This document shows, piece after piece, positions 12,929-55,405 of a stretch of 64,000 bases of DNA. Position 1 is the first letter of the stretch. Every line of letters starts with the position of its first letter. The stretch comes from Pseudomonadota bacterium (lineage in GTDB: Bacteria; Pseudomonadota; Gammaproteobacteria; Xanthomonadales; Xanthomonadaceae). The notes under the pieces are model-generated. The model was not told the origin of the DNA. It was given only the letters and a program-made list of their open reading frames with translations, and made no database searches. The position numbers and the translations under genes are program-made. Where the stretch lies: NCBI GenBank assembly GCA_021821195.1, contig JAKACT010000002.1, forward strand, positions 124,001 to 188,000. The letters are read 5' to 3'.

Positions 12929-14788
<1,860 letters not shown>

Positions 14789-14855: not shown

Positions 14856-15239
14856 CTATTCGATCTGCACCATCGCCAACTCGGGGAAGTGCTCCTCTGC
14901 ATGGCAGTTAGCGCAGAGCAGAATGCATTTCGCAAGCTCGGCCCGGATTTCCGCGATGCTGCGATTGGAGAGCGAACGCACGTCGAGATGGAATCTCTTC
15001 TCTCCGGGAACGCAGTGATGCCAAGTCAACGCTGCAAGATTGCGTTGGTAGCCGCAACGCGTGCAACTGCCGCCGGCAATCTCCACCAGCTCGCGTTTCC
15101 GGGCGAGTCCCCGTTCCTGCTGGCGCATGTAGCTTTGGTGCCGATGATTGGTGTCCGCGTTCTTGCATTTCAGCGAGCAGAATCGCCTCTGTCTCCCTGA
15201 CAGCGGCGCATGGCAAATCGAGCACTGGATGGATTTCAC
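14856..15239 (-). CDS. HNH endonuclease-like zinc-finger protein
   Basis: A 127-residue protein with an N-terminal Cys finger (CSIC ... FCSLKC, about 6-24) and a C-terminal HNH fold. The fold shows CTRCG (about 59-63), LTWHH (about 70-74) and CANCH (about 109-113), typical of ββα-metal nucleases. The start is GTG at 15239, because an in-frame TAA lies 9 bp upstream. It diverges from the intron-bearing tRNA-Ile gene, with 62 bp between them, and converges on rpoD. It could be a free-standing homing endonuclease linked to the group I intron, or an unrelated small nuclease. The fold is seen in sequence; the homing role is inference. Confidence 0.7.
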
Positions 15240-15264
15240 CTTTTAAACATAATCCATTTCAGGG

Positions 15265-15293
15265 TTGGAGGGATGTCTCCCGGTTGCTACGAT
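15265..15293 (+). promoter_or_regulatory. Promoter of the tRNA-Ile gene
   Basis: TTGGAG (15265-15270) and TACGAT (15288-15293) are separated by exactly 17 bp and sit 9 bp before the first tRNA base. This fits a sigma-70 promoter that starts transcription almost at the tRNA 5' end. Confidence 0.6.
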
Positions 15294-15301
15294 GCGCGCT
15301 C

Positions 15302-15611
15302 GGGCCTATAGCTCAATGGTTAGAGCAGAGGACTCATCGAAAGGTGACCCCGGCACCGGAAGGGCCGGCGGAAAAACGGGATGAATTCAGGGAAACCCTA
15401 GCGGTTCGGCCGAGGGCAATCCTGAGCCAAGCCGGCGGTACACCGCCGGAAGGTGCAGAGACTACCTGAGGGCTGAAGTGCCCTTGATGACAGGCCAGAG
15501 CCTCCCGCACCCCACCAGCGCCAGCTGCGGGTGATGAGATAGTCCACACCGGAGCGAAAGCCCCGGACAATGTGAATCCTTTGGTTCCAGGTTCGAGTCC
15601 TGGTGGGCCCA
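15302..15611 (+). tRNA. tRNA-Ile(CAU), split by a group I intron
   Basis: The exons are 15302-15337 and 15575-15611. Joined, they form a full cloverleaf. The acceptor stem is GGGCCTA/TGGGCCC with one G-T pair. The D-stem is GCTC/GAGC, the anticodon stem GAGGA/TCCTT, the loop CTCATAA with anticodon CAT, and the T-arm CCAGG-TTCGAGT-CCTGG. The discriminator is A and no CCA is encoded. The body (AGCTCAATGGTTAGAGCAG ... CAT AATC) matches tRNA-Ile2, whose C34 is converted to lysidine to read AUA, rather than a Met tRNA. The intron interrupts the anticodon loop between bases 36 and 37, so splicing is needed for function. Confidence 0.9.
15338..15574 (+). ncRNA. Group I intron (self-splicing ribozyme) in tRNA-Ile(CAU)
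   Basis: A 237-nt insertion with group I hallmarks. P1 pairs exon UCAU with GUGA in the intron, giving the U-G wobble at the 5' splice site. The P/Q core strands are AATTCAGGG (about 15384-15392) and AATCCTGAGCC (about 15418-15428). R is GTGCAGAGACTA (15453-15464) and S is AGATAGTCC (15537-15545); P7 forms by GACTA/TAGTC. A P9 hairpin with a GAAA loop lies near 15550-15566, and the terminal guanosine is at 15574. Length, insertion point and core resemble the 205-nt Azoarcus tRNA-Ile intron (subgroup IC3). It has no internal reading frame, so it cannot encode its own homing enzyme. Confidence 0.9.
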
Positions 15612-15835
15612 TGTCAGATTTGCAGGCGGATCGTGGCCTGTGCGCGGAAAAGCATCGACTGTCCTAGATGGCCACTTTTTCATTTTCCGAAAGGAAAGTC
15701 GGTCCCCACCGGGTCGCACCGCGAAGCCCGTGAGAAGCCGAAGGATCCATAGTCGATCCCAGAGGGCGTACCCAGTTGTCCAGCTTGATGCTTCGGGGAT
15801 AGGCTGCCACGCACATCCATTCGAAAGGAATCTTT

Positions 15836-54184: not shown

Positions 54185-55405
54185 ATGCCTACTGCCATCC
54201 CGCCAACCCGATCGAATCCGCCCGGCAACGCTGGCGAGGTGTTCGTCGCCTTCCTGCGGCTGGGGCTGACCGCGTTCGGCGGGCCCATCGCCCACATCGG
54301 CTACCTGCGCGAGGCCTTCGTGCGTCGCCGCGGCTGGCTGGACGATGCCCACTTCGCCCAGCTGCTGGCGGTCTGCCAGTTCCTGCCCGGGCCGGCCAGC
54401 AGCCAGATGGGGTTCGGCATCGGCCTGGCGCGCGCCGGCTGGCGCGGCGCGCTGGCGGCGTTCGCCGGGTTCACCCTGCCGTCGGCGCTGCTGATGCTGG
54501 GGTTCGCCGCGCTGGCGCCGCGGCTGGGCGCAGGCGCGGGCACGTCGGCACTGCACGGGTTGAAGCTGGTGGCGGTGGTGGTGGTGGCGCACGGCCTGCT
54601 GGGCATGGCGCGGCAGCTGGCGCCGGACCTGCCGCGGCTGCTGCTCGCGGCCGGCGCGGCAGCGCTGGTGCTGGCCACCGGCAATGCGTGGCTGCAGCTG
54701 GCGGCGATCGCGCTGGGCGCAGTGCTGGGAACGTGGTGGTGCCGACAGGCTGCGGCGCCGACGGCGGCGCTGTTTCCGTTCGGCGGCGGTCGGCGGGTCG
54801 CCGCCGTCTGCCTGACGCTCTTCCTGCTGGGGCTGCTGGCCGCGCTGCTGCTGCCGGCCAGCGCCACGCCCACGCTGGCCGGGGTGGCGGCGGCGTTCTA
54901 TCGCGCCGGCGCGCTGGTGTTCGGCGGTGGCCACGTGGTGCTGCCGCTGCTGCAGCAGTCGCTGGTGGCGCCGGGCTGGCTGCCCGCGGACAGCTTCCTG
55001 GCCGGCTACGGCGCGGCGCAGGCGGTGCCGGGGCCGATGTTCTCGCTGGCGGCGTTCCTCGGCGCGGACATCCCGCTGGGCCTGCCGCCGGCAGTGGGCG
55101 CGCTGGTGGCGCTGCTGGCGATGTTCCTGCCCGGCTTCCTGCTGCTGGCCGGGATGCTGCCGTTGTGGGCCGGACTGGTGCGGCACCGCCGCGCGGCCAG
55201 CGCGATGGCCGGCATCAACGCCGCCGTGGTCGGCCTGCTGGCGGCGGCATTCATCGACCCGGTCTGCAGCGGCGGCGTGCGCGCGCCGGTGGACGCGGCG
55301 ATTGCCGTGGTCGGCTTCGCGCTGCTGGCCGGGCTGCGCTGGCCGGCGTGGACCGCGGTGCTGTGGTGCGTGGCCGCGGCGGTCGGGATCGACGCCTTGG
55401 CTTGA
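54185..55405 (+). CDS. chrA: Chromate transporter ChrA
   Basis: A 406-residue inner-membrane CHR protein of the long-chain, two-domain type that exports chromate. The two homologous halves each have the FGGP/FGGG motif (FGGPIAHIGYLREAFV near 36 and FGGGHVVLPLLQQSLV near 245) and the matching FLPGPASSQMG and AVPGPMFSLAAFLG sequences. About ten membrane helices are seen. No chrB or chrC is present. The ATG at 54185 lies just before the conserved region. Confidence 0.93.
   Translation: MPTAIPPTRSNPPGNAGEVFVAFLRLGLTAFGGPIAHIGYLREAFVRRRGWLDDAHFAQLLAVCQFLPGPASSQMGFGIGLARAGWRGALAAFAGFTLPSALLMLGFAALAPRLGAGAGTSALHGLKLVAVVVVAHGLLGMARQLAPDLPRLLLAAGAAALVLATGNAWLQLAAIALGAVLGTWWCRQAAAPTAALFPFGGGRRVAAVCLTLFLLGLLAALLLPASATPTLAGVAAAFYRAGALVFGGGHVVLPLLQQSLVAPGWLPADSFLAGYGAAQAVPGPMFSLAAFLGADIPLGLPPAVGALVALLAMFLPGFLLLAGMLPLWAGLVRHRRAASAMAGINAAVVGLLAAAFIDPVCSGGVRAPVDAAIAVVGFALLAGLRWPAWTAVLWCVAAAVGIDALA

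Follow-up and report, generated by a model that had tools for sequence, protein, structure and literature searches.

Gene Organization of the Locus

The window analyzed here, a stretch of 64,000 nucleotides, contains a tRNA-Ile(CAU) gene that is split by a group I intron and lies beside a gene encoding a predicted HNH endonuclease, with rpoD as the upstream landmark (Table 1). The tRNA gene spans positions 15302–15611 and is broken after U36, at 15337/15338 and at 15574/15575. The coordinates of the insert and the tRNA-Ile(CAU) identity proposed in a sequence-only reading of this DNA proved to be exact: the 73 nt of joined exons form a complete cloverleaf with anticodon CAT as called by ARAGORN. 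Every tRNA stem is intact, and the exon sequences hardly vary among 21 homologues. The earlier reading overlooked the HNH gene 62 bp upstream of the tRNA, which is the less ordinary part of the locus.

Table 1. Features of the tRNA-Ile(CAU) locus, with positions in the window.
Feature	Position	Strand	Basis
rpoD (sigma-70), upstream landmark	12929..14788	+	Pfam sigma-70 regions 1.1-4
HNH endonuclease gene (predicted), GTG start, 127 aa, 62 bp from tRNA 5′ end	14856..15239	-	PHROG match and intron linkage
tRNA-Ile(CAU) 5′ exon, up to anticodon position 36	15302..15337	+	Joined-exon fold; same 5′ border in 21/21 family introns
P1: exon UCAU and intron C, GAAA loop, guide GGUGA	15334..15347	+	Structure model, pair counts
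Group I intron, 237 nt, final G	15338..15574	+	Rfam RF00028; pair counts, 21 homologues
P3 5′ strand, partner 15503-15507	15377..15381	+	Invariant in 21 sequences
P7 5′ strand, partner 15540-15544	15460..15464	+	Rfam alignment, pair counts; invariant
P7.1/P7.2 extra hairpin between P7 and P3	15465..15494	+	Insertion relative to Rfam consensus
P9 hairpin	15549..15566	+	Rfam alignment, pair counts
tRNA-Ile(CAU) 3′ exon, CCA not encoded	15575..15611	+	Joined-exon fold

Copy Number of tRNA-Ile(CAU) and Use of AUA Codons

That ordinary tRNA searches may miss this gene had been anticipated, and they do: ARAGORN with default settings reported 0 tRNAs in the whole window, and the 41 RF00005 matches in the genome do not include the unspliced gene. 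The long-intron mode of ARAGORN detects the gene, but misplaces the junction and calls it Gln(ctg). A tRNA-Pro with a long intron that the same mode reported at 54486–54789 was taken as a false call. An antisense ORF of 92 aa also runs across the intron (window 15334–15612, minus strand, beginning MGPPGLEPGTKG) and looks like a spurious tRNA-antisense frame.

The source genome (G000) comprises 2.92 Mb in 13 contigs and is 98.17% complete. ARAGORN reads 41 distinct tRNAs from its 41 RF00005 matches, two of which have CAT; by their sequence features, we assign these two to the elongator and initiator Met tRNAs, and the Ile rather than Met identity of the split tRNA is likewise assigned from sequence features. 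A count of further tRNA-Ile(CAU) genes and of tilS had been proposed as a check on the sequence-only reading. No second copy was found among the 41 tRNAs, and the spliced 73-nt sequence gave exon-length matches only, none of full length, leaving the split gene as the single copy in this assembly; tilS is present (159.8 bits, above the cut-off). The cloverleaf with CAU, the presence of tilS and the distinctness from both Met tRNAs identify the gene as tRNA-Ile2 (CAU, lysidine), with the Ile/Met assignment made from sequence features as above. No Trp, Ile(GAT) or Ala(TGC) tRNA is among the 41, probably owing to assembly gaps at tuf and the rRNA operons.

Codon AUA is nearly unused, with 1 ATA in 15,816 codons of 39 window ORFs picked by length and by GC3 >= 0.8. 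The need for tRNA-Ile(CAU) may therefore be small, and the ground on which splicing had been called essential, that tRNA-Ile2 is normally the only reader of AUA, is weaker here than usual because this codon is almost absent from the window genes. The same count would suit a dead intron within a tRNA pseudogene, with AUA decoded by other means or scarcely decoded at all. We regard such a state as very improbable, since the tRNA stems are intact with nearly invariant exons in the 21 homologues, the intron helices contain compensatory changes (see below), tilS is retained and no other gene for tRNA-Ile(CAU) was found in the assembly.

Structure of the Intron

The group I assignment was borne out by the covariance search. 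Within a 501-nt stretch, the insert matched RF00028 (Intron_gpI) at 51.7 bits (E 2.5e-12); searched genome-wide it scored 49.6 bits (E 1.5e-11), just below the gathering score of 50, and is the only match of the genome. The whole-window Rfam scan at the gathering score listed no intron. In the 501-nt alignment, P3–P9 are well aligned and the P1/P2 part of the model falls on upstream DNA and the tRNA.

A hand-drawn P1–P9 model, in which P3 and P7 form a pseudoknot and P4, P5, P6, P8, and P9 are present, was applied to the 21 aligned homologues. Pairing was found in 95.5% of cells, and 16 pairs were changed on both sides, compared with 6.7 in shuffles and 0–6 in slid controls. In 11 of the 19 helices, P3 and P7 included, two-sided changes are absent; P3 and P7 never vary and so contribute no covariation. 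The P2 drawn for this intron fits some rows only (64.8% of cells paired). P1 pairs UCAU of the exon with GUGA, followed by a further C-G pair under the GAAA loop. Within P1, the U·G at the 5′ splice site, the A-U, the C-G and the first intron pair are kept in 21/21 sequences and the outermost U-A in 5/21; the terminal G of the intron is invariant in the 21 homologues. The insert is a group I intron with a P3–P9 core, a P3/P7 pseudoknot, a U·G pair in P1 and a terminal G; the joined exons, Rfam and the pair counts bear out the exon/intron borders, P1 with its U·G, the P3–P9 core and the terminal G of the sequence-only reading. By analogy, the 5′ strand of P7 may be the region of the guanosine site, and from this structure the intron is predicted to follow the group I splicing pathway. 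Introns of subgroup IC3 (Azoarcus type) are not known to have a P7.1/P7.2 insertion; a P7.1/P7.2-like hairpin is present in the window intron.

The Adjoining HNH Gene

The protein encoded upstream of the tRNA matched the HNH endonuclease family PHROG 2255 (E 6.4e-19) and, below the cut-off, Pfam HNH. NCBIfam gave nothing above a cut-off, and a search of the PDB by sequence returned only nanobody noise and no solved relative. Seventeen aligned relatives share 30 invariant columns, which include nine cysteines as well as H75, N92, and H113; the protein has the HNH motif and the zinc cysteines of an HNH endonuclease. One of five AlphaFold models was confident (best model pLDDT 87.5, pTM 0.62; four others 60–69). 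Foldseek found nothing at E <= 0.001, and its weak top match was an HNH nicking enzyme (nickase; E 0.078). A plasmid search gave no match.

Distribution of the Intron

RF00028 matches were identified in 21 of 198 genomes of the family sample (13 of 54 genera; 14 matches above the cut-off), a count that may be low given that G007 and G094 show no match to the spliced tRNA and 10 other genomes only weak ones (G014, G030, G036, G041, G049, G066, G110, G153, G176, and G193). All 21 introns lie in tRNA-Ile(CAU) at an identical insertion site. Twenty of these genomes have exon-length matches only to the spliced tRNA. G023 has an intact copy too; its contig carries a second rpoD piece and belongs to a bin of 89% completeness and 4% contamination, so this copy probably comes from a contaminant.

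RF00028 matches were obtained in 56 of the 369 class-sample genomes. Among the best 30 class loci, 18 have a CAU motif at the border, i.e., the same site, and mostly no HNH gene; eight are in other tRNAs according to the long-intron mode of ARAGORN, which is unreliable, and four gave no tRNA. The intron is not rare. It is ordinary for its kind, of which the tRNA-Ile intron of Azoarcus is a known member. The group I introns of Gammaproteobacteria at L237, L239, L242, L245, L248, L255, L261, and L263 are placed in other tRNA genes by the long-intron mode of ARAGORN, with unreliable anticodon calls.

Linkage of the HNH Gene and the Intron

The HNH gene was found in six of the 198 family genomes, and all six are among the 21 intron carriers; the chance of such a co-occurrence is 7e-7, relatedness being ignored. 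Each of the six copies is on the opposite strand to the interrupted tRNA and at most about 110 bp away from it; four are intact and two are remnants (that of G043 has a stop, and that of G144 keeps 29 residues). Next to the G095 intron there is also a weak match to the HNH profile (E 8.8e-4). At E<=1e-10, the class sample contains the gene in three of 369 genomes (G000, G232, and G505), in each case adjoining an intron-bearing tRNA-Ile(CAU), and a weak profile match occurs near the class-sample intron L235. A scan of GTDB genomes yielded 48 stretches that matched peptide patterns, of which 12 were confirmed. Eleven of the 12 (L102–L112) have the gene in the same place and orientation beside an intron-bearing tRNA, about 60–75 bp from it (61–85 bp when counted from the start of the match; the 85 of L102 is counted from residue 6, so about 70). 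They come from Lysobacter, Thermomonas, Rhodanobacter, Arenimonas, Luteimonas, Pseudoxanthomonas, and unnamed MAGs, and rpoD lies on the far side of the HNH/tRNA unit in 11/11. The family, class and GTDB sets overlap, and three of the 11 GTDB loci have introns identical to those of family-sample genomes. At these loci, the HNH gene adjoins an intron that has no nuclease gene of its own.

Several observations speak against a partnership. In 15 of the 21 family genomes with the intron, the sister genome G150 (98% rpoD identity) among them, the protein search detected no HNH gene, and only three of the 56 intron-bearing class genomes have one; most introns therefore persist without a detected HNH gene. 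The two broken family copies, the weak Pfam and fold matches to HNH enzymes and the intron tree, in which a vertical clade of G000 and G150 is not rejected, also count against it. The 15 family introns, together with the 18 of the best 30 class loci that have the intron at the same site and mostly lack HNH, would agree with a vertically inherited intron that has lost its mobility and an unrelated, selfish HNH gene that happens to use the rpoD–tRNA spacer, and the introns of G000 and G150 may form one clade. We nevertheless consider this explanation quite unlikely, since the HNH gene was never found away from such an intron (6/6, 3/3, and 12/12 in the three sets), since the tRNA is intact in most family genomes yet HNH occurs only beside split ones, and since Lysobacteraceae, Rhodanobacteraceae, and two other families in the class sample share the HNH/tRNA geometry.

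Empty Sites and Phylogeny

Six same-genus relatives (G051, G081, G107, G131, G167, and G183) have an intact tRNA gene. The distance from the end of rpoD to this gene is about 80–140 bp in five of them and 3.5 kb in G081; the corresponding gap is 513 bp here, with the HNH gene, and 250 bp in sister genome G150, where the intron is present and no HNH match was obtained. Close relatives with and without the intron make the relation of intron and nuclease gene testable in culturable bacteria.

The window intron shares 88.5% identity with the G043 intron and 86.4% with the G150 intron, with rpoD identities to G000 of 82% and 98%, respectively. Two groups separate in the intron tree with support 100/99, and few intron branches are well supported. 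A single clade of two Thermomonas introns was rejected (p-AU 0.009), and one of G144 and G097 was borderline (p-AU 0.056). One vertical clade of the G000 and G150 introns was not rejected (p-AU 0.27 and 0.34), and we therefore claim no transfer for this pair. On an rpoD tree of 29 genomes, intron presence changes at least nine times, a number inflated by the choice of genomes (G023 was dropped because it had no match, and nine intronless genomes were hand-picked as same-genus partners). The co-occurrence and the empty sites fit a joint movement of intron and HNH gene, and the trees are only partly decisive; the two have probably spread together.

A Candidate for Collaborative Homing

We consider it probable that this locus holds a self-splicing intron in the only detected tRNA-Ile(CAU) gene together with an HNH nuclease that acts as its partner in collaborative homing. 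Most likely, the intron of the transcript would splice itself out in the usual two guanosine-dependent steps, and the spliced product would be a normal tRNA-Ile, the substrate for modification by TilS. The intron contains no reading frame for mobility; this role most likely falls to the separate HNH gene encoded on the opposite strand. Intronless tRNA-Ile(CAU) genes would be cleaved by the nuclease in or close to the anticodon loop, after which donor-templated repair would copy the intron along with the adjoining nuclease gene. Linkage, orientation, conserved distance, and empty sites all point to such homing.

A different possibility is that the HNH gene homes alone near tRNA-Ile and that the intron is a by-stander, either co-converted or protecting the site. 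Some loci of distant phage relatives of the HNH gene agree with this. Among the best 80 of 391 confirmed viral HNH loci (L114–L193), a tRNA lies within 150 bp in 46 and within 500 bp in 51, counts that include near-identical contigs and have no background rate to be set against, and at L115 and L120 the HNH relative stands beside a CAT tRNA that ARAGORN calls intact. The bacterial samples (family, class, and GTDB scan), on the other hand, show no HNH copy beside an intronless tRNA-Ile, and we judge homing of the HNH gene alone to be unlikely.

HNH Relatives in Phages and Inside Introns

The HNH gene and intron proposed here as partners have counterparts in a phage. The genome of Klebsiella phage Muenster (MT708547, L194:1480–1810) contains an unannotated tRNA-Ile(CAU) gene with a group I intron of 231 nt, which shares the insertion site of the window intron and is 59% identical to it. 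An annotated HNH gene lies about 220 bp beyond the tRNA, after a tRNA-Asn, and matches the HNH profile at 72.8 bits. Muenster thus shares the insertion site and a related HNH gene with the window; it differs in being a phage genome and in having the HNH gene downstream and longer. This stretch of the Muenster genome is also matched in three further Klebsiella phage records. According to a 2014 review, all phage introns observed by then were in protein-coding genes (PMC3984707); that of Muenster is in a tRNA gene.

At two other loci, the nuclease gene lies within the split tRNA. The 12th GTDB match, from a Pyrinomonadaceae MAG of the Acidobacteriota (L113:3720–4405, minus strand), has an antisense HNH gene, its product 52% identical to the window HNH protein, between the halves of a CAU tRNA. 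This gene apparently sits in a group I-like intron between U33 and C34, the core of which was read by eye; Rfam gave no match to it at E<=0.01. A viral contig of IMG/VR (L119:3525–4420, minus strand) has a CAU tRNA split likewise, with an antisense HNH gene inside and an Rfam intron match of 59.4 bits.

We see about an even chance that a tRNA-specific HNH family serves the CAU-tRNA group I introns of both bacteria and phages. Its members would be placed beside phage tRNA genes, beside intron-bearing tRNA-Ile genes in Lysobacterales and a few other Gammaproteobacteria, and antisense inside the intron in one Acidobacteriota genome and one viral contig. If true, collaborative homing would operate in bacterial chromosomes, and these loci would form a natural series of a nuclease gene and an intron coming together.

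Relation to Known Systems

The Azoarcus intron likewise interrupts the anticodon loop of tRNA-Ile(CAU), with a 5′ exon ending in CAU and the guide GUG, and is small and without a reading frame. The window intron differs in its extra P7.1/P7.2 hairpin, which is not known from the Azoarcus intron, and in its linked HNH gene. For cyanobacterial tRNA-fMet, an intron-encoded endonuclease was reportedly described by Bonocora and Shub in 2001. Similar to that system, the present candidate would be a homing endonuclease aimed at the anticodon region of a CAU tRNA; the cyanobacterial gene is inside the intron, whereas the window HNH gene is outside the tRNA gene.

The group I intron in tRNA-Ile of Azoarcus sp. 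BH72 is given as a solved structure in PMC3984707. Collaborative homing is described for T3/T7-like phages, psbA of cyanophage S-PM2, and the ICP1 terminase (PMC3984707; PMC10448857). As in those phages, a group I intron free of reading frames is directly adjoined here by a free-standing endonuclease gene. The present candidate differs from them in its bacterial chromosome, tRNA target, other HNH family, and opposite strand. Searches of titles and the beginnings of abstracts in the open-licence literature found no report of tRNA-Ile introns in Lysobacterales, of a bacterial HNH gene associated with tRNA introns, or of phage tRNA introns.

Taken alone, the intron, which the sequence-only reading had interpreted correctly, is one more tRNA-Ile intron and a warning that tRNA finders overlook a gene that is otherwise single-copy. 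More important is the linked nuclease, with members of one HNH family seen both next to and within group I introns of one kind of tRNA gene; the HNH partner would be a new form of a known kind of system, if it functions as proposed.

An Element Preceding the HNH Start

In most of the loci L102–L112, and at window positions 15230–15265, the start of the HNH gene is preceded by GGATTTCAT..CATAATCC or close variants. This element resembles both a -10 box and the split anticodon arm of the tRNA. An operator that mimics the homing site was considered but is not claimed, the resemblance not being significant by itself: the longest match was 5–10 nt in 12 loci, the sequences of which are related. Random windows matched at least as well in per-locus fractions of 0.005 to 0.81, and the element may be only a -10 box.
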